A DNA stretch of 20,357 nt from a virus. The translations under genes and the position numbers were made by a program. Below the pieces are notes generated by a model. It saw only the letters and a program-made list of their open reading frames with translations, was not told the DNA's origin and did not search any database. Below are positions 699 through 20,357 of this stretch, one piece after another. Within the stretch, counting starts at the first letter, position 1; each line of letters begins with the position of its first letter. The stretch covers positions 1-20,357 of IMG/VR virus record IMGVR_UViG_3300043409_001760, one strand, 5' to 3'.

Positions 699-1205
699 TT
701 AGAATGGGATGTCGTCTTCATCGCCGTTGCCAAAGTCCGGCATCGGCGGCGGCGGGTTGGATTTTGGCGCGTGGCGAGGTGCGCCGAAGTCGGCGTGGTC
801 GTCGGCCGGCGGTGACTGGCGCGGCGCAGGCTCGGCTTTCGGTGGCTGGCGCGCATCTTGACCCTCGCGAGGCCAGTAAGCCGGGCCAAAGCTGCGGATC
901 TCGATCACCAAGCCTTCTTTCTTCTCGCCATTTTGGCCCGTCCAGTTCTCCGCCTGCACGTCTCCGACGACAAGGATGGAGTCGCCTTTGCTGAGGCGCA
1001 TGAACTCATCGGCGGCGAAGTCTTGCCCCTGCCCATCACGGCCCCAAAGCTTGAGCTTAAACCATGCCGTCGCCCGGTTGCCGTCGCGGTCCTTTCGTCC
1101 GTTGAAAGCTCCAGTCGTTTCATAGATGCGCTTGCCGCTGGCAAGTTGCTTTTCGTCTGCGGATCGGCCAAGCGTGACGATGACGCGTATTTCGGTGCTG
1201 ATCAT
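699..1205 (-). CDS. ssb: Single-stranded DNA-binding protein
   Basis: SSB coats single-stranded DNA during replication and recombination and recruits partner enzymes through its C-terminal tail. The first 110 or so residues look like an SSB OB-fold, with a typical beta-strand pattern including FKLKLWGRDGQ and a strand resembling ILVVGDVQAENW. A Pro/Ala/Asp-rich flexible linker follows, and the protein ends in DDIPF, the classic acidic partner-binding tip of bacterial and phage SSBs. At 168 aa it is a normal length. The ATG at 1205 overlaps the exonuclease stop (ATGA), so SSB is translated with the Exo/Bet pair. Together they form a complete strand-annealing recombination cassette. Confidence 0.93.
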   Translation of the reverse strand: MISTEIRVIVTLGRSADEKQLASGKRIYETTGAFNGRKDRDGNRATAWFKLKLWGRDGQGQDFAADEFMRLSKGDSILVVGDVQAENWTGQNGEKKEGLVIEIRSFGPAYWPREGQDARQPPKAEPAPRQSPPADDHADFGAPRHAPKSNPPPPMPDFGNGDEDDIPF

Positions 1206-1843
1206 GCTGGCACCCCCAGAGCTTTGCGTAGGGCCGACACTCGGTCCTCGACAAGGTTGTTGAAACTGACGAGGGCCGGGATCATCTTGGCCAAGAACTC
1301 CTCATCGCGGTGGATACGAATGATGACCCCTTGTTGATCTTCGGGCAGGTCATCATGGAAAACCACCAGGTCGCACCACTTGCGGCCGCTGAGCCAGAGA
1401 CCGCCTTGAACCTGGTGCAGGTAGTCGGCGGCGTCCTTGGTCAAGGCAAACTCGCTGAATGCCGGGGCCATCGGACACTTGATCTCGAGCAAGCCGTCGC
1501 CGCCGATCAATCCGTCTGGGCTGTAGCTGTAATTGCCGCAAGCGCTGACGAACATTCCGACCTGCTCGACGGTGCTGCCGTTCTGGATTTCGTACCACTG
1601 GCGGGCGACCGGCTCAAGGTCATTGCCGCGCTTCATGGCGAAGTTCTGGAAGACCTCGCCGGCCGACTTGCCAGTCAGGCGCTCCCATGCCAGTTCCTTG
1701 AGATAGTTGAGGCCGGGGGCGGTTAATTGCCCCTTGGCGGTGCGCTCGCAGACCGTCGCAAAGCGGCTGGCGGTGATCTTGCCGAGGCGGGCAGCTTTCC
1801 ACTCGGGAGAGCCTTGGACAAGATTTTGAATCACGGAACTCAT
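1202..1843 (-). CDS. YqaJ / lambda Exo-type recombination exonuclease
   Basis: A PD-(D/E)XK nuclease of the YqaJ/lambda Exo family, which digests one strand of double-stranded DNA ends to produce single strands for the annealase. Visible motifs in order are SPEW at residues 12-15 followed by the GKITAS segment, GNDLEP at 73-78, SPDG at 108-111, LEIKC at 119-123 (probable metal-binding Asp110 and Glu120 with Lys122) and HQVQGGLWL from 143. All key catalytic positions are present. The length of 213 aa fits the family. Its ATG overlaps the Bet stop (ATGA at 1840-1843) with AGAGGTG upstream, so Bet and Exo are made together as in lambda. Confidence 0.93.
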   Translation of the reverse strand: MSSVIQNLVQGSPEWKAARLGKITASRFATVCERTAKGQLTAPGLNYLKELAWERLTGKSAGEVFQNFAMKRGNDLEPVARQWYEIQNGSTVEQVGMFVSACGNYSYSPDGLIGGDGLLEIKCPMAPAFSEFALTKDAADYLHQVQGGLWLSGRKWCDLVVFHDDLPEDQQGVIIRIHRDEEFLAKMIPALVSFNNLVEDRVSALRKALGVPA

Positions 1844-2649
1844 AAAGGCACCTCTTCAGTTTGGGATTCGGCAGGGATGGCAGCTGCGTCGGCAGCAGCG
1901 GCAGCGGTTTTATTGGCGTCGTGGTAAGGCGCGAGCGCTTTGCGTCCATCTTTGCTCAGGCCGGCAAAGAAGGCTTGATAAGCCTTCATGCCATTCATCG
2001 CGGCATCGCGGCCGCTGTCAATCAGGGCTTGGACATCTTGGCCGGGTGGTGGCGGCGGCGGCGCTTCGTCCGGCTGAAGAGCGCGGCCTTCCATCTCGTC
2101 GGCGGTGTAAGCCGCGGCAAACTCGGGAAAGGCGCGGCGGAGGGCCTGAGCCTCAGCGCACTTGGCGAGCTGCGCAAAGGGGCGGCGGGTCCACATCGCG
2201 TTTGGAGCTATGGAGTTCTTGCTGTCAGTTGCATAGTTCTCTTTCCATCGTTCGAGGGCTGGGAACTCGGCGACGGTGCCATTGGGCAGTAGGCGCTTGC
2301 AGATCACGCGGCACCACTCGGGATATTCCAGGGTTTTGCCGCCGATGTTCTCGGTCTTGGTCGGGCCGTATTCCGGCTCGCTGACCCCGGCGCACTGTTC
2401 GGTGCGGCTGGCCTGGGTGCGGTAGAGATTGACGCCAGGCATAATCACGTCACGCATGCCGTTGATGGTCTTGTCCCACATGGGGACGATGTGGACCGGC
2501 TTTTGCATCGGATCGAGGCCAGCCGCCTTGCAGTAGCTCAGGACCAGCGCGACACTTTCCGGCTTCGCTCCGGGATAGAGCGAGTTCTGGAGTGTGGTGA
2601 TTAGTTCTCTCTCAGATTGGGCGGTGACGATTTGGGTTTCTTTGGACAT
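1840..2649 (-). CDS. bet: Phage recombination protein Bet (RecT family annealase)
   Basis: A single-strand annealing protein that pairs complementary strands exposed by the adjacent exonuclease. The hallmark stretch AAGLDPMQKPVHIVPMWD near residues 42-60 is typical of the Bet/RecT family, as are the following YRTQAS segment, the WCRV strand with an aromatic and charged lysine environment, and the helical MWTRRPFAQLAKCAEAQALRRAFPE region near 150-175. The C-terminal quarter is Ala/Pro-rich and low complexity, including a PPPPPP run, and probably flexible. The length of 269 aa is normal. It lies directly upstream of Exo (4-base overlap) and downstream of the coiled-coil protein. The family is RecT-like rather than Rad52/Erf-like. 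Confidence 0.92.
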   Translation of the reverse strand: MSKETQIVTAQSERELITTLQNSLYPGAKPESVALVLSYCKAAGLDPMQKPVHIVPMWDKTINGMRDVIMPGVNLYRTQASRTEQCAGVSEPEYGPTKTENIGGKTLEYPEWCRVICKRLLPNGTVAEFPALERWKENYATDSKNSIAPNAMWTRRPFAQLAKCAEAQALRRAFPEFAAAYTADEMEGRALQPDEAPPPPPPGQDVQALIDSGRDAAMNGMKAYQAFFAGLSKDGRKALAPYHDANKTAAAAADAAAIPAESQTEEVPL

Positions 2650-14231: not shown

Positions 14232-15731
14232 TCAAACTCCTGCATTGGGGTTATAGGCTTTCTTGGTTTGGCGGGTGAATTGCGGGGTTGCCTCTCCTCG
14301 TGAGAGCGAGTCGTCTTTGCGAATGTCGCGAGTTCCAACCGGCACAGCCCAAAGCAAGGCGATGGAATCGGCAAAGTCGGGTGAGCCGACGCGCCGGGCC
14401 TTCATCTCGTCCTTGCTCTCCAGCTTGATCCGGCTGTCATTGTCGTACTTGAAAAGCCTGGTTGTCAGCTCGCGTTCCAAGCGGTCATCATCCGGCAAAC
14501 GAAGCTTGGGCAGCTCATCGCGGAGAGTTCCCCACATCGAATCGCCGCGACTGGCATATTTGCGATCAGCGCTGGCGTGATTGTTCAGGACTTCATTCAC
14601 CACCCATCCCCAGTTACGCAAGATGTCAATGACACCGCCGCCGACACCGCCGCCGTCAATGTTGATAGCTTCAGGGCTCAGCTCTTTGGCAAGTGCGCCG
14701 ATCATGCCCGCAAGCTGCGTGGTGTCAGACTTGGGCAGGATAACGGGCTTGCGATAAGCGCAATCGCGGCCGCGCCGGACGGTAATCACCGCATCGTCAT
14801 CGCCAAAGCGGGCGACGTCACAAGCAATGACAATCGGATCGGCGGGATGGACTTCGACCACGCGCTTACGGGCAGCTTGCACCGGGTCGCGGCCAATGAA
14901 TTGATTGGATGAACTGGAAGGGAATTCGCCACGGATACGGACTTTCACCCGGTCGGAGTCTTCGCCGTGGATCTTCACTTCTTCGGCCAGCTCGGCCTTG
15001 TTGGTGACTTTCACGGTGCGGCTGTCGACCTTGCGACCCTTCCAACGCTTCGCCTCAGCCCCGTAGAAGCAATCGTAAAAAGCGCCGCTGTTCTGGGTTG
15101 GGTTCCCGAAGGCGCACCAGATGATCTCCGTCTCTTTGTCAGTTAGTGCGCCGTTGGCGACTTCCCAGACGATTTGAGGGATGCCGGAAGCCTCATCGAA
15201 GATCAAGAGCAAGCGGCGCTTCTGGTTGTGCAGGCCGGCAAAGGCTTCGGTGTTATGCTCGCTCCATGTCGACATGTCAAAGCGCCATGTCTCCGACTTC
15301 TCCGGATCGGCGCTGAAGATGGCGGACTTAGTGAGCTTAAACCAGTGCTTGCAGATAAGCAGGTTGAACCACTTACTGACTTCCGCCCAAGTCTTCTTGC
15401 GCAGCTGGTCTTCGGTGTTGGCGGTGACAATGCCCTTGCTGTCGGTCATCGTTGCCAAATTCCAGAGGATAAGCCAGCTAACGCAGGCGCTCTTGCCGAT
15501 GCCGTGGCCGGAGCTGACGCAGAGGCGCACCGGGCGAAGCAAGGCATCATCGACGCTGATGCCGTTCTTGATGTCAGTGAGGACGCCAACGGCCCATTCG
15601 TCCGGGCCATCGAAGTCTTGCAAGGGGCCGGGCTCACCCCAAGGGAAAGCGATCTGCACGAACTTGAGCGGGTCTTTTGAGCAGCCCGCCATCAGCTCAA
15701 GCAATTCCTGTTCGGGGTCGATGGCGATCAT
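14232..15731 (-). CDS. terL: Terminase large subunit (packaging ATPase/nuclease)
   Basis: The packaging motor ATPase and genome-cutting nuclease. Walker A SGHGIGKS is at residues 74-81 and Walker B LLLIFDE at 174-180, followed by AS. The C-terminal RNase H-like nuclease has acidic residues at Asp305 (ACDVARFGDD), Asp359 (INIDGGG) and Asp455 (SPDFADSIAL). All signatures are intact and the 499-aa length is usual. Its start overlaps the TerS stop (ATGA) and it ends close to the proline-rich gene. It should dock on the portal encoded two genes downstream. Confidence 0.95.
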   Translation of the reverse strand: MIAIDPEQELLELMAGCSKDPLKFVQIAFPWGEPGPLQDFDGPDEWAVGVLTDIKNGISVDDALLRPVRLCVSSGHGIGKSACVSWLILWNLATMTDSKGIVTANTEDQLRKKTWAEVSKWFNLLICKHWFKLTKSAIFSADPEKSETWRFDMSTWSEHNTEAFAGLHNQKRRLLLIFDEASGIPQIVWEVANGALTDKETEIIWCAFGNPTQNSGAFYDCFYGAEAKRWKGRKVDSRTVKVTNKAELAEEVKIHGEDSDRVKVRIRGEFPSSSSNQFIGRDPVQAARKRVVEVHPADPIVIACDVARFGDDDAVITVRRGRDCAYRKPVILPKSDTTQLAGMIGALAKELSPEAINIDGGGVGGGVIDILRNWGWVVNEVLNNHASADRKYASRGDSMWGTLRDELPKLRLPDDDRLERELTTRLFKYDNDSRIKLESKDEMKARRVGSPDFADSIALLWAVPVGTRDIRKDDSLSRGEATPQFTRQTKKAYNPNAGV

Positions 15732-16240
15732 TTGTCCCCCTTGAGGCGGCGGCGAACCGCTTCAAGCCGAGAACCAAGCTCGACATTGCCAGAAACCTCC
15801 AGCTTGTCGGTAAACATGCCGAGGTGACGGCCAAGCAAGGTCAGCGCGGCCACCTTGTCATTAAGCTTGACCTTGATATTTCGGCTTGATCCCTTCTCGC
15901 TCTCGGAGCTGGTTTCCGCGACTTCTGCAACGCAAGCAGCTGCATCATCGCTGAGTTCTTCTGAGGGAACGAGCTTGACTCCATCCGGCCCCCAAGACAT
16001 GACTTTGCGCGGATCGCCAAAGGCAATCTTTGCCAATTCCTTCACCACGGCGTCTTGCGTCACTGCAACACGCTGGCCGCGAACTTCCATCGCCTTGACG
16101 ATTGCCGCTTGCACATCTTCACGCTGCATCAGGCGTGTGCCAGCTACAGACGAGTGAGCGTATCCAGCTTCTTCAGCGGCGCGCGTCTGATTCAAATGAA
16201 CCAGGTAACAATCCACGAATTTTTGATGCTGGGGGTTCAT
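15728..16240 (-). CDS. terS: Terminase small subunit (Terminase_2-like)
   Basis: The N-terminal region LVHLNQTRAAEEAGYAHSSVAGTRLMQREDVQAAI is a classic Terminase_2 helix-turn-helix segment that recognises packaging DNA. The rest is a helical oligomerisation region with an Arg-rich tail. The frame is open upstream to 16294, but the ATG at 16238-16240 (MNPQHQKFVDCYL) matches the usual N-terminus and has GGAAAG about ten bases upstream. An earlier ATG at 16273 lies inside the repeat region. At 170 aa the length is normal. It is the first gene of the leftward late operon. Confidence 0.9.
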   Translation of the reverse strand: MNPQHQKFVDCYLVHLNQTRAAEEAGYAHSSVAGTRLMQREDVQAAIVKAMEVRGQRVAVTQDAVVKELAKIAFGDPRKVMSWGPDGVKLVPSEELSDDAAACVAEVAETSSESEKGSSRNIKVKLNDKVAALTLLGRHLGMFTDKLEVSGNVELGSRLEAVRRRLKGDK

Positions 16241-16261
16241 TGCGCTTTTTCTTTCCGCGTT

Positions 16262-16289
16262 ATATTCGTTCATGCGAATATTCGAATAT
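16262..16289. promoter_or_regulatory. Overlapping inverted repeats in the divergent late control region
   Basis: Half-site ATATTCG appears twice on the plus strand (16262-16268, 16278-16284), and its complement CGAATAT twice (16275-16281, 16283-16289). The first pair forms a 7-bp inverted repeat with a 6-nt spacer. The second overlaps as the perfect 12-bp palindrome ATATTCGAATAT (16278-16289). The centres are 12 bp apart. The array lies between the divergent TerS and Bbp19-like genes, where both late promoters must be, so it could be an operator for a late regulator. No convincing -35/-10 pair was found for either direction. Confidence 0.55.
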
Positions 16290-16315
16290 ATCACTCATTT
16301 AAAGGCTGCAAGACG

Positions 16316-16624
16316 ATGAGCCAAGAGAAATCCGCCAGCGAAATCCAGCGCGACAAGGTGAAGCAAGCGTTTCACGAAGAGCGCCGCCGCCGTGTCGCTG
16401 TCGGGGTCGAGCAGATGGCTAATTCACCGGAGGGCCGCGCCCTGCTGTGGGAAATCCTCAACGCCTCGCATGTCTTCGGCGATTGCTACGCAGCGAGCCC
16501 CACCGACACCGCCTACAACCTCGGTGCCCGCTCAGTCGGCTTGAACCTGCTTAACCTCGCTCTCCCCGCTCACTCCGAACTTATCAGCCTCTTAACCAAG
16601 GAAAACACATGTCCGATCAAGTGA
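16316..16624 (+). CDS. Bbp19-like phage protein (102 aa)
   Basis: The frame is open upstream of 16316, but the region before it overlaps TerS and the repeats; the ATG at 16316 (MSQEKSASEIQRDKV) is the first sensible start, with AAAGG about ten bases upstream. Residues about 38-90 (SPEGRALLWEILNASHVF onward, then YNLGARSVGLNLLNLALPAHSELISLL) match the pattern of the Bbp19 family found beside head genes of BPP-1-like podoviruses: GR-x-LLW, VF, then NxGxRxVGLxLL. The function is unknown; an assembly role is likely from its constant place. Its 3' end overlaps the scaffold start by 16 bases. Confidence 0.75.
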   Translation: MSQEKSASEIQRDKVKQAFHEERRRRVAVGVEQMANSPEGRALLWEILNASHVFGDCYAASPTDTAYNLGARSVGLNLLNLALPAHSELISLLTKENTCPIK

Positions 16625-17316
16625 ACCAGGGTGAAGTCAATGCCGCGCCTTCTCTCGTTTCTCCTACTGCTGCGCCCTCTGCCGCCGCTCCTGCCGTCAA
16701 TGCCAGCGCTGCGCCCGTATCAGCACCCGCAGCCGCCGCCCCGGCGTTGGCCCCGCGCCGCCAGTCGCTGCTGACCGCTCCGGAGCCTGTTGCAGAAACC
16801 AAGCAGGAAGCCGCGCCCGCCGCAGAAGCTAAGCCCGATGGCGAGGCTAAGACTATTGAAGGCGTTCCGGAAAAGTATGAATTCAAGGTCGATGGCTTTG
16901 AGTTCATCGACACCGCGCTTGCCGACAAGGCCGCACCAATTCTCCAGAAGCTCGGCCTCAACAACGAGCAAGCCAACGCTCTCGCGCAGGTCTACGCCGA
17001 ACACCTCACCCAGCAGGGCGAACTTTACGAAGCCAATCAGCAGAAAGCTTTCTTTGAAAAGCTTGATGGCTGGGAAGCCGAAACCCAAAAGCAGTTTGGC
17101 GACAAGCTGCCGCAAGCCCTTGAGAGCGCAAAGATCGCTCTCCAATACTTGGAGTCTCCCGAACTTGTGGAGCTTCTTGACACCTCCGGCCTTGGTTCTC
17201 ATCCCAATGTCATCCGCAGCCTAGCCAAGCTGGGCGGGCGGATGCGGGAACGAGAAACCGCGCTCGGAGTCTCGACCCCGCAGAGCGCCGACGCCTGGGG
17301 CTTCGGAAATCGATAA
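16609..17316 (+). CDS. Putative capsid scaffolding protein
   Basis: A 235-aa protein with an Ala/Pro/Val-rich, low-complexity N-terminus (residues 1-85) and an acidic helical second half containing LQKLGLNNEQANALAQVYAEHL and a C-terminal helix-turn region (LGLGSH-like, SLAKLGGRMRERETALG). This composition and place, immediately before the major capsid gene, are typical of podovirus scaffolds, which assemble the procapsid and then leave. AAGGAAAACAC precedes the ATG. No protease motif is visible, so a separate maturation protease is not encoded here. Confidence 0.8.
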   Translation: MSDQVNQGEVNAAPSLVSPTAAPSAAAPAVNASAAPVSAPAAAAPALAPRRQSLLTAPEPVAETKQEAAPAAEAKPDGEAKTIEGVPEKYEFKVDGFEFIDTALADKAAPILQKLGLNNEQANALAQVYAEHLTQQGELYEANQQKAFFEKLDGWEAETQKQFGDKLPQALESAKIALQYLESPELVELLDTSGLGSHPNVIRSLAKLGGRMRERETALGVSTPQSADAWGFGNR

Positions 17317-17341: not shown

Positions 17342-18391
17342 ATGGCCCTCCTCAACAGTACCCAGCTTGGTCTTTTTGACCTGACCAAGCGCCTCGACGG
17401 CTCCGGCAAGGTCGTCGACATCGCCGAAATCGCCGTCAAGCAAAACGACATTCTTGATGACATGATGTTCGTCGAATGCAATGACGGCTCCGGTCACAAG
17501 ATCAACGCCCGCATGGGCTACCCCGCCCCTACTTGGCGCGAGCTCAACAACGGCGTCGACTTCGCGAAGTCTGACGTTCAAGTCCTGCGCGAAACCTGCG
17601 GCCTCATGGGCAGTATGGTTCGCGTCGATGCCAAGGCCGTCGAACTCGCTGGCGGCGGCAAAGCTGCCAGCGCTCGCAACGCCGACGAAAAGACCGCCGT
17701 GTCCAACCTCTTCGCCCAAGAGATCATTGGCGTCACTCAAGGCATGTCCGATGAAGCTGCTTCGACCATCATCTATGGCAGCTTGGCCGCTGACTCGAAG
17801 AAATTCACCGGCCTCGCCCCCCGTTACTCGCAGCTCACCGGCGAAAGTGCCACCAAGCAGAACGTCCTTGACGCCATTGGCAACGCTGGCGCTCTCAACA
17901 CCTCGATTTGGCTGGTCGTCCATGGCGGCGTCGGCCTACAGGGCATCTACCCCAAGAATACTAAGGCAGGCATCCAGCATGTCCAAGTCAGCAACGGCAC
18001 CCCTGTTCTAACTGATGCCCCCAACGGCGGCCAGTACCTCGCCTATGTCGATGAACTGAGCTGGAACCTCGGTATCGCTCTTCAGAACTGGGAAACCTGC
18101 ATTCGCATCGCCAACGTCGATACCACCAAGCTTCTGACCGATGACGCCTATGTTAAGACCATCCTCAAGAAGATGATTCAGGCCAGCGAGATCGTCAGCA
18201 AGTTCCGCATGGGCAAGGCCTGCTTCTACATGAACCGCCTCGCTCGCACCGCCCTACGTCTCGGCTACATGGAGCGCAGCGCCAATACCATCACCTTCGA
18301 CAGCGTGGCCGGTAAGCAGGCCATGCAGTTCGGTGAAATCCCCGTGCGCCTCTGCGAAAGCATCATCAACACCGAAGCCAAGCTCACATAA
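17342..18391 (+). CDS. Major capsid protein (BPP-1/Bcep22-like)
   Basis: 349 aa, matching podovirus major capsid proteins of the BPP-1/Bcep22-like group. The N-terminal pattern LLNSTQLGLFDLTKRLDGSGKVVDIAE, then GHKINARMGYPAPTWRELNNG, FAKSDVQVLRETCG and, around residues 137-155, MSDEAASTIIYGSLAADSKKF followed by GLAPRYSQL is the signature of this family. An HK97-like fold is expected from family knowledge. AAGGAAACACC lies before the ATG, and a strong hairpin follows the stop. It is probably the most abundant structural product. Confidence 0.92.
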   Translation: MALLNSTQLGLFDLTKRLDGSGKVVDIAEIAVKQNDILDDMMFVECNDGSGHKINARMGYPAPTWRELNNGVDFAKSDVQVLRETCGLMGSMVRVDAKAVELAGGGKAASARNADEKTAVSNLFAQEIIGVTQGMSDEAASTIIYGSLAADSKKFTGLAPRYSQLTGESATKQNVLDAIGNAGALNTSIWLVVHGGVGLQGIYPKNTKAGIQHVQVSNGTPVLTDAPNGGQYLAYVDELSWNLGIALQNWETCIRIANVDTTKLLTDDAYVKTILKKMIQASEIVSKFRMGKACFYMNRLARTALRLGYMERSANTITFDSVAGKQAMQFGEIPVRLCESIINTEAKLT

Positions 18392-18397
18392 ACCCCA

Positions 18398-18420
18398 CCG
18401 GGGGCTGAATAAGCCCCCGG
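18398..18420 (+). other. Hairpin between capsid and decoration genes
   Basis: A perfect 9-bp stem (CCGGGGGCT against AGCCCCCGG) with the 5-nt loop GAATA begins six bases after the capsid stop. No T-run follows, so it is not a full intrinsic terminator. It may protect the 3' end of the capsid mRNA or mark a processing or attenuation point. The next gene has its own GACAGGA ribosome binding site. Confidence 0.65.
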
Positions 18421-18438
18421 AAGACAGGAATCACCCAC

Positions 18439-19110
18439 ATGACCACCGACTACGCCACCAAACTCAGCGCCTCCCAAGTCGTCCCCGTCACCGCCAACAC
18501 CGTCACCCCTTCGACCAACCAGTTGAAGCTCGGCACCGGCATGAAGACCAACTTGGGTAATGTCATCGGCCCGAAGAACCTCCACCTCAAAATCAACATC
18601 GAGGTTGCCCCAACCGTCAGCACCAACGCCAACGGCTCCGGCGCTGAGCCCGCCGTCACCTTCCAGTTGCGCGGCTCGCAAAACGCCGACATGAGCGGCA
18701 GCGTCATCCTGCTTCAGTCCGCTGGTTACCGCCCCGGCGTCAGCGCTCGCGCCAACTCCACCGGCTACACCGCTGGTACTGTCGCCGCCAAAACCGGCAG
18801 CGTCCGCACCCCCGCCGTCCCGAACGGCTTCCAGTACCGCTGCACCACCTCCGGCACCTCTGCCGCTTCCGAGCCGGTCTTCCCGACCGTCCCCGGCCAA
18901 ACGGTCGTTGATGGTACCGTCACATGGACCTGCGAAGTCGCCGAAGGCCGTCAGCTCATCGCCACCAAAGAGCTCGACTTCTGTCCCGCCGTCCCCGCCA
19001 GCGCTTACGCCTACTTCGACGTGACCTACAGCGTCGGCGCCACCGCTCTTGATGGCGCTCTCACTGTCACCACCCAGCTGGTCGACGGCGAGCAAGTCAA
19101 CTGGCGCTGA
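18439..19110 (+). CDS. Bbp16-like capsid decoration protein with an inserted module (223 aa)
   Basis: Residues 1-95 and 168-223 fit the Bbp16-type head protein seen next to BPP-1-like capsid genes: an N-terminal strand region, FQLRGSQNADMSGSVILL near residues 75-92, and the C-terminal part with ASAYAYFDVTYSVGATALDGALTVTTQLVDG. Between them, residues about 107-165 contain the inserted module (NGFQYRCTTSGTSAASEP, then TVVDGTVTWTCE) also present in the tail tubular protein. Family members with and without the insert would settle its boundaries. It probably stabilises the expanded capsid or displays the module on its surface (inference). Confidence 0.72.
   Translation: MTTDYATKLSASQVVPVTANTVTPSTNQLKLGTGMKTNLGNVIGPKNLHLKINIEVAPTVSTNANGSGAEPAVTFQLRGSQNADMSGSVILLQSAGYRPGVSARANSTGYTAGTVAAKTGSVRTPAVPNGFQYRCTTSGTSAASEPVFPTVPGQTVVDGTVTWTCEVAEGRQLIATKELDFCPAVPASAYAYFDVTYSVGATALDGALTVTTQLVDGEQVNWR
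18757..18933 (+). repeat. Inserted module, copy 1 (in the decoration protein)
   Basis: The translated segment around residues 107-165 ends with the signature TVVDGTVTWTC. It matches residues about 70-126 of the tail tubular protein: NG-(F/Y)-x-Y-x-x-T-T-x-G-T-S before EP-x-x-PT-x-x-G-x-TVVDGTVTWTC. Boundaries are approximate. Confidence 0.7.
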
Positions 19111-19118
19111 GGTAGACC

Positions 19119-19364
19119 ATGCGATTCAAAGCCATTCAAACCTGCTTCATCGGCCATCACCTGCTTAAACCCGGTCAGGAGATCGAGCTGGCGGATGACT
19201 ACCCGGACACCCCGGGCGTCATCGAGGCTTTGAATCGCCCTCCTCCTCCCGGTCCCGTGGATGAAGAAGAGGACCCCGGCAGTGACGGCGAGGGTGATCC
19301 CTCCAAGCCGGGCGATCCTTCCAAGCCAAAGCGCGGACGAAAGCCCAAGACTAAAACCGAATAA
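19119..19364 (+). CDS. Small protein with acidic then basic tail (81 aa)
   Basis: The first 40 residues (FKAIQTCFIGHHLLKPGQEIEL) form a compact beta-like part of a kind found in small proteins encoded between podovirus head and tail genes. A proline run, an acidic stretch EEEDPGSDGEGD, and a basic tail KPKRGRKPKTKTE follow. The GAGGTAGACC before the ATG is a usable ribosome binding site. The charged tail could bind DNA or capsid; function unknown. Confidence 0.68.
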   Translation: MRFKAIQTCFIGHHLLKPGQEIELADDYPDTPGVIEALNRPPPPGPVDEEEDPGSDGEGDPSKPGDPSKPKRGRKPKTKTE

Positions 19365-19369
19365 CCCAG

Positions 19370-19397
19370 AGGGGGAGGAAATAAAACTCCTCCCCCT
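19370..19397 (+). other. Hairpin before the tail tubular gene
   Basis: A perfect 10-bp stem (AGGGGGAGGA against TCCTCCCCCT) with an 8-nt loop lies just after the 81-aa gene. Only TTCT follows, so termination would be weak at best. It resembles the hairpin after the capsid gene in placement and in being followed by a GACAGGA ribosome binding site. Confidence 0.6.
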
Positions 19398-19414
19398 TCT
19401 GACAGGAGCAAAGC

Positions 19415-20182
19415 ATGGCTTTCACTGACATTCAGATTTGCAGCCTCGCCCTTTCCCGCATCGGTTCACGTGCCACCATCGGCAGCTTGAGCGAGGCGAC
19501 AAACGAGGCCCGAGCCTGCAATATGGCTTACACTCTGGCGCTTGAATCGGCTCTTGTCCGCTTCAACTGGTCATTCTGTGCGGCCACCGCAAGACTGGTC
19601 GAATCCGGCACCGCGCACACCGCATGGATCAAGAACACCGTCTATGCTCTTGGCTCATTCCGCCGCCCCACCACCGACAACGGCTACGCCTATGAAGCCA
19701 CCACGGGCGGCACCTCTCACGCCACCACCGAACCCATTTGGCCCACCGCGGCAGGCGCGACCGTGGTCGATGGCACTGTCACTTGGACCTGCCGCGAGCC
19801 GATCACCGAATGGGAATACAGCTATGCCTTACCAAGCGACTGCCTCAAGGTTCGCCGCATCTTGATCGGCGATGAATGGTCGAGCGAGCCCTACGAGATC
19901 CAAGGTAATAAGCTGCTCACCAATGCCGCCGACGACAAGGGCTTGCGCATCCGCTACACCGCCCGCCCGGTCGACACTGCCCTTTTTCCTGCCTCCTTTG
20001 TCGAGGCCTTTGCGGCCAAGCTCGCCTCACGGCTTGCCGTCGCCATGGGCACCGATGCCAACACCCGCCAAGCCGTTGAACGCGAGTGGATGAGCACCCA
20101 GCCGGGAGCCGAGGCCGTGGACGCCGTGCAATCCCGCCGCAATGCAAAACCAGATCCCGAGTGGATCAAGGCGCGAGGCTAA
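19415..20182 (+). CDS. Tail tubular protein A-like, with inserted module (255 aa)
   Basis: The start (FTDIQICSLALSRIGSRATIGSL, then NEARACNMAYTLALESAL) and RFNWSFCAATARL are typical of T7-like tail tubular protein A, which attaches below the portal. The family's next landmark, a WEYSYALPSDCLKVRRI strand, appears at residues 133-149, but about 60 residues of extra sequence (70-127) are inserted before it. The C-terminal half (FPASFVEAFAAKLASRLAVAMG) is normal. GACAGGAGCAAAGC before the ATG gives a strong ribosome binding site. The insert is the same module as in the decoration protein. Confidence 0.85.
   Translation: MAFTDIQICSLALSRIGSRATIGSLSEATNEARACNMAYTLALESALVRFNWSFCAATARLVESGTAHTAWIKNTVYALGSFRRPTTDNGYAYEATTGGTSHATTEPIWPTAAGATVVDGTVTWTCREPITEWEYSYALPSDCLKVRRILIGDEWSSEPYEIQGNKLLTNAADDKGLRIRYTARPVDTALFPASFVEAFAAKLASRLAVAMGTDANTRQAVEREWMSTQPGAEAVDAVQSRRNAKPDPEWIKARG
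19622..19795 (+). repeat. Inserted module, copy 2 (in tail tubular protein A)
   Basis: Residues about 70-127, ending TVVDGTVTWTCRE, correspond to copy 1 in the decoration protein. The segment interrupts the usual tail tubular protein A sequence between the RFNWSF helix and the WEYSYALPSDCL strand. Boundaries are approximate. Confidence 0.7.
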
Positions 20183-20184
20183 TC

Positions 20185-20357
20185 ATGCAGCCAATCATTC
20201 AATCCGCTTTCACATCCGGCGAACTCAGCCCCGCCCTTCATGGACGTCAAGACCTCGCCAAGTACGACAGCGCGGCAAGATTCATTCAAAACTTCATCAT
20301 TCGCCCCACTGGCGGAGCCAGCAAGCGCCCTGGCACACGCTTCGTTGGCTACAGCAA
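20185..20357 (+). CDS. Tail tubular protein B-like / tail hub protein (partial)
   Basis: The ATG at 20185 follows the preceding stop by two bases. The visible 57 residues contain FTSGELSPALHGRQDLAKYDSAAR followed by NFIIRPTGGASKRPGTRFVG, a highly typical N-terminus of podovirus tail tubular protein B-like / stabilisation proteins. The gene leaves the window on the right. With protein A it would form the tail tube and nozzle, so the tail genes lie beyond the right edge. Confidence 0.88.
   Translation, partial: MQPIIQSAFTSGELSPALHGRQDLAKYDSAARFIQNFIIRPTGGASKRPGTRFVGYS

Follow-up and report, generated by a model that had tools for sequence, protein, structure and literature searches.

Why should one phage carry the same segment of about 60 residues inside two different virion proteins? 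The question is raised by the window analysed here, which is an entire IMG/VR record of 20357 bases from an uncultured virus. From position 16609 onwards its plus strand encodes, in this order, a protease, the major capsid protein, a cement protein, a small gene, an adaptor and a tail stabilisation protein, an arrangement that matches those of epsilon15 and Carin1, and the phage is an epsilon15/BPP-1-type podovirus. The features discussed below are the following:

1202..1843, minus strand: exonuclease of a recombination pair (phrog_149/434, E 3e-40/6e-23)
1840..2649, minus strand: RecT-like annealing protein of the same pair (phrog_2449, E 7.5e-85)
17342..18391, plus strand: major capsid protein (GP7/phrog_212), here free of the module (PF20911, E 7.6e-87; phrog_212, E 3e-49)
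18439..19110, plus strand: Bbp16/epsilon15-gp8-type cement (decoration) protein, P0001, 223 residues, with an internal module (gene position, core fold and weak sequence match)
18742..18936, plus strand: first module copy, cement protein residues ~102-166, within a jellyroll-core loop (module profile, E 2e-20)
19415..20182, plus strand: tail tubular protein A/head-tail adaptor, P0002, 255 residues, with an internal module (phrog_394, E 3.7e-42; PDB 8ck1_E)
19610..19795, plus strand: second module copy, adaptor residues ~66-127, within the loop preceding WEYSYALP (module profile, E 1e-25)
20185..20355, plus strand: 5' part of a tail stabilisation/nozzle protein gene, ending at the window end (phrog_376 tail protein, E 2e-19)

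Around 14232-17316 of the window the coding strand changes, from minus for the terminase and portal genes to plus for those of protease, capsid and tail, and the sign of the GC skew flips near 15-16 kb. Unlike this region, the corresponding genes of epsilon15 are colinear from the portal on. GC-rich inverted repeats are located at 18391-18430, 3' of the capsid gene, and at 19365-19410, 5' of the adaptor gene; in epsilon15, terminators are annotated immediately 5' of gp10, a region similar to that of the inverted repeats in the window.

The first-pass annotation had claimed that the cement protein and the adaptor share a segment of some 60 residues with an identical TVVDGTVTWTC end, and this was borne out. 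The cement protein presents the motifs NGFQY (residues 129-133), TTSGTS (136-141), EPVFPT (145-150) and TVVDGTVTWTC (155-165), and the adaptor NGYAY (89-93), TTGGTS (96-101), EPIWPT (106-111) and TVVDGTVTWTC (116-126). BLASTP aligned a single segment of the two proteins, residues 108-166 of the first with 69-127 of the second, with 33 of 60 positions identical (55%; E 6e-16). Chance similarity is ruled out by this E-value together with a shuffle test, in which the BLOSUM62 local score of the pair (159) compared with a maximum of 63 over 2000 shuffles. Judged by their sequences, the two segments are homologous. Their proposed limits required adjustment, since the cement insert, placed at residues 107-165, begins earlier, at about residue 102 (nucleotide 18742), and the adaptor insert, placed at about 70-127, spans residues ~66-127 (nucleotides 19610-19795).

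The adaptor is a full-length member of its family, with residues 4-254 covering positions 3-188 of the 190-residue phrog_394 profile, which it exceeds by about 65 residues, and it also matches the Connector Protein of PDB entry 8ck1_E (E 9e-11). We compared it with a set of 85 ORFs (64 distinct) drawn from 80 viral contigs and from phage records. The distance separating a conserved Trp from the Pro conserved in WEYSYALP is 27-29 residues in 61 of the 64 distinct adaptors and 89 in the window, in agreement with the earlier claim that the module interrupts the family sequence just before WEYSYALP. Only two other adaptors present a longer stretch. The one in locus L125 (4998-5714; 80 residues) carries at the same loop a CBM_5_12-like insert, scoring 26.1 bits against a cut-off of 26.2 (E 8.9e-6), and the one in MW202510 (locus L003, 6001-6831; 99 residues) carries there an E1_FCCH domain unrelated to the module (E 3.6e-9). 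Three different small domains have therefore entered one loop.

The cement gene lies directly 3' of the major capsid gene, like epsilon15 gp8 and Carin1 gp42, and its product belongs with these proteins by position and by a jellyroll core resembling 3j4u_H and 8cjz_A. Sequence matches are weak (phrog_427; cement profile, E 0.007). In Foldseek searches, the two best matches of its AlphaFold core were the Carin1 capsid chain 8cjz_A (probability 1.00, E 0.014) and Bbp16 3j4u_H (probability 0.99, E 0.07). Confidence in the full model is low owing to the insert, the region of which is itself modelled at low confidence, but the core strands flanking it (89-93 and 192-199) are confident. In the alignment, the insert separates the strand that ends in VILLQSAGYR from EGRQLIATKEL, and no such insert was detected in the ~70 cement profile matches from the loci of the adaptor survey. 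Since 61 of 64 adaptors and other cement homologues lack the segment, alignment with family members identifies both copies as insertions, and the reading of the segment as part of the core fold of these families is ruled out. Neither this nor a difference in fold between the two segments, the outcomes named in the first-pass annotation as contradicting its proposal, was observed. By strand count in the model, the cement insert follows the fifth strand and would thus form the F-G loop. The cement loops listed as contacting the capsid in BPP-1 are the N-terminal, C-terminal and C-D loops (PMC3863775), and because the F-G loop is not among them, outward display of the insert is plausible.

Because alignments that mixed full proteins with module fragments came out wrong, separate models were built for the module and for the cement protein. 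The model of the adaptor copy (68 residues, built on 57 aligned copies) reached a pLDDT of 92.8 and a pTM of 0.80. The best solved match returned by Foldseek was 7eea, the receptor-binding domain, as titled in the PDB, of the Pam1 cyanophage tailspike (probability 1.00, TM 0.70, 32% identity); next came chitin deacetylases, chitinase B and the isolated chitin-binding domains 2rts and 2d49. CBM5/12 domains matched with probabilities up to 0.95 and TM of ~0.4-0.5, but with E of 0.19 or higher, and no PDB match of the model attained an E-value of 0.001 or better. The module sequence profile likewise matched 7eea (E 0.011) and the chitin-binding domain of chitinase A1, 1ed7 (E 0.5). In Pam1 the matching residues (~493-546) include the DG.V.W end, although their loops are shorter and they belong to a tailspike. 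A search of predicted viral structures placed a P22 gp10-like protein first (51% identity), with tail fibre, baseplate and pectate-lyase-like proteins among the others.

Pfam CBM_5_12 (PF02839) matched 17 of the 57 module copies at E<=0.1, one of them (in L105) above the cut-off with 27.1 against 26.2 bits, and neither window copy. The module shares with CBM5/12 its Foldseek neighbourhood and the core W..xxxY..GD.V..NG..Y.C, and differs in a C-terminal half of its own, GTSG..EPTWPTT.G.TV.DGTVTWTC. Because the fold neighbours CBM5/12 but the window copies are missed by the Pfam model, we designate the module, on the strength of its predicted structure, a CBM5/12-like (chitin-binding type 3-like) autonomous beta domain of about 60 residues, and not a CBM5/12 member. 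An assignment to the phage Ig-like domains was rejected, with Pfam Big_4 touching a single one of the 57 copies (E 0.014) and the fold matching CBM5/12-like domains.

Searches of viral contigs with either whole window protein returned no matches. The module alignment initially obtained varied too much to yield a search pattern, and a strict codon pattern for DGTVTWTC, which selects copies with exactly that end, was used instead. It identified 112 viral contig stretches, in which a module HMM matched 136 ORFs, falling into 53 host-protein clusters after masking of the module. Named hosts include the major tail protein phrog_807, the major capsid protein phrog_212, the terminator phrog_176, the head-tail adaptor phrog_442, the head closure protein phrog_578 and the tail assembly protein phrog_778. 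The description as a mobile surface domain, perhaps carbohydrate-binding, is upheld as regards anatomy and fold by the host range, the insertions and the model, and carbohydrate binding, for which the window copies give no Pfam CBM_5_12 match, is presumptive. The module is internal in 159 of 170 copies. Cultured phages that carry it include Mycobacterium phage LilSpotty and Alteromonas phage vB_AmaS-R9Y2. Distant relatives of the major capsid protein carry it in 13 other loci, where it comes after a motif aligning with AFMGLA of epsilon15.

Two or more ORFs contained the module in 17 of 110 sampled loci, a lower bound given that the loci are cut, and carriage in two proteins is therefore not peculiar to the phage of the window. 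In four loci (L042, L045, L091 and L117) both the major capsid protein and the product of the adjoining structural gene of the same phage carry the module. In L063 and L099 the head-tail adaptor and tail terminator copies of one phage fall in a single supported clade, making these pairs better candidates than the window for copying between genes.

On balance, the module is probably an accessory domain with low affinity for glycans, serving adhesion and inserted in loops of virion proteins, its copies having been gained by recombination. In the phage of the window, the cement copy occupies a jellyroll loop of a protein that coats the head many times over, and the adaptor copy lies in the loop before the WEYSYALP strand, in the ring joining portal and tail. 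Low-affinity modules would gain avidity from their copy number and could keep the particle near cells or polysaccharide until the genuine receptor-binding protein takes over. Recombination probably brought in or exchanged the copies at different times. We infer the glycan binding, along with the outward exposure, the benefit to infection and the route of spread. The suggestion that head and tail display a single binding specificity is not warranted by the 54% identity of the copies.

Three considerations make weak multivalent adhesion to glycans our best guess: the predicted fold, the match to Pam1, and the example set by the lactococcal 936 phages, whose Dit, major tail and neck proteins contain CBMs, with binding to host cells demonstrated for two of them (Hayes et al. 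2019, PMC6669499). Like the module, these CBMs (evolved Dit, MTP TpeX and neck passage) are carried by virion components distinct from the receptor-binding protein, some internally and several per particle. Unlike it, they adopt BppA-type and other CBM folds, not CBM5/12, and they decorate the tail and neck of siphophages, in place of the head cement and adaptor of a podovirus. Their binding was assayed, whereas the module is known from sequence and a model.

The main rival to glycan adhesion is a structural role, in which the module would bridge adjacent subunits of shell or neck as a stabiliser with no ligand. The precedent is the T4 capsid insertion domain, a chitin-binding-like domain inserted in the capsid protein, which bridges neighbouring capsid molecules and is reported to stabilise the capsid (PMC3185693), a likeness drawn from description; Foldseek matches of the module include the putative T4 chains 9mkb_Ao and 6uzc_C (TM ~0.46). 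Many module hosts are ring or shell proteins in which such bridging could occur. Nonetheless, tail fibres and tailspikes also contain the fold, and both window proteins have homologues that lack the module; we regard this role as unlikely.

Somewhat less credible still is that the module is a passenger, with insertion-tolerant loops gathering small beta domains (CBM5/12-like, E1_FCCH) of little or no selected function. Such a scenario would accommodate the unrelated domains that relatives carry in the adaptor loop, the wide scatter across host proteins and the presence of any insert in only 3 of 64 adaptors. It is countered by strong conservation across hosts, with G36, P44, D56 and W61 invariant in 57 copies picked by their DGTVTWTC end, and by repeated carriage, at least 17 of 110 loci encoding the module in more than one protein of the same phage. 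Beyond these rivals it is possible, though less likely than not, that virion proteins possess preferred docking loops that swap unrelated small beta domains, and that phages load one adhesion module on several parts of the particle (cement and adaptor in the window; capsid and neighbour in the four loci listed above) as a coordinated multivalent coat.

The age of the two copies was addressed by codon alignment, which yielded 59% nucleotide and 54% residue identity. At 34 shared residues, 19 third positions agree, against 18.6 expected from codon usage; because this agreement is only that predicted, synonymous sites are saturated and bear no sign that one gene was recently copied from the other, an event that is disfavoured. 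The nearest relative of the adaptor copy is a copy in another virus (locus L024, 74%, against ~54% for the cement copy), and the cement copy groups with copies from major tail proteins (57%, support 90), in a module tree that has few columns and is poorly resolved, its free search having missed a better tree. These comparisons favour separate acquisition of the two copies, an old duplication being possible. That a recent duplication within the genome copied the module between the cement and adaptor genes is very improbable in view of these identities and third positions, even if the TVVDGTVTWTC end is identical, the genes are near neighbours and an AU test does not reject sisterhood of the copies (p-AU 0.67). 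Passage between virion genes by recombination, as initially proposed, agrees with the mobility across 53 clusters; any direct transfer between these two genes would be old. The exonuclease and RecT-like annealing protein of the phage (1202-2649) are plausible agents of module shuffling.

Ig-like domains of phage virion proteins are often appended at a terminus, whereas the module is nearly always internal. Both are optional, promiscuous beta domains of capsid, decoration, tail and fibre proteins, with different folds; those of the Ig-like type were reportedly described by Fraser et al. in 2006 and are reviewed in PMC7602432, and domain shuffling in tail proteins has also been documented (PMC10684548). 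Promiscuous virion domains (Ig-like, CBMs) and the shuffling of tail proteins are already known, and what is new is a further fold family and new virion positions. Our literature search found no paper describing the module. This CBM5/12-like family, which has no dedicated Pfam model and appears in PHROGs as 'head decoration' (phrog_20658), joins a short list of promiscuous virion domains. With it, such decoration extends beyond long tails to the cement protein and adaptor of a podovirus, and even, among relatives, to the major capsid protein. The defined loops that accept foreign domains make the role of ancillary virion adhesion directly testable. Automatic annotation may name a protein by its module and not by its core: phrog_20658 matches many unrelated proteins solely via the module, and annotations derived from it are unreliable.
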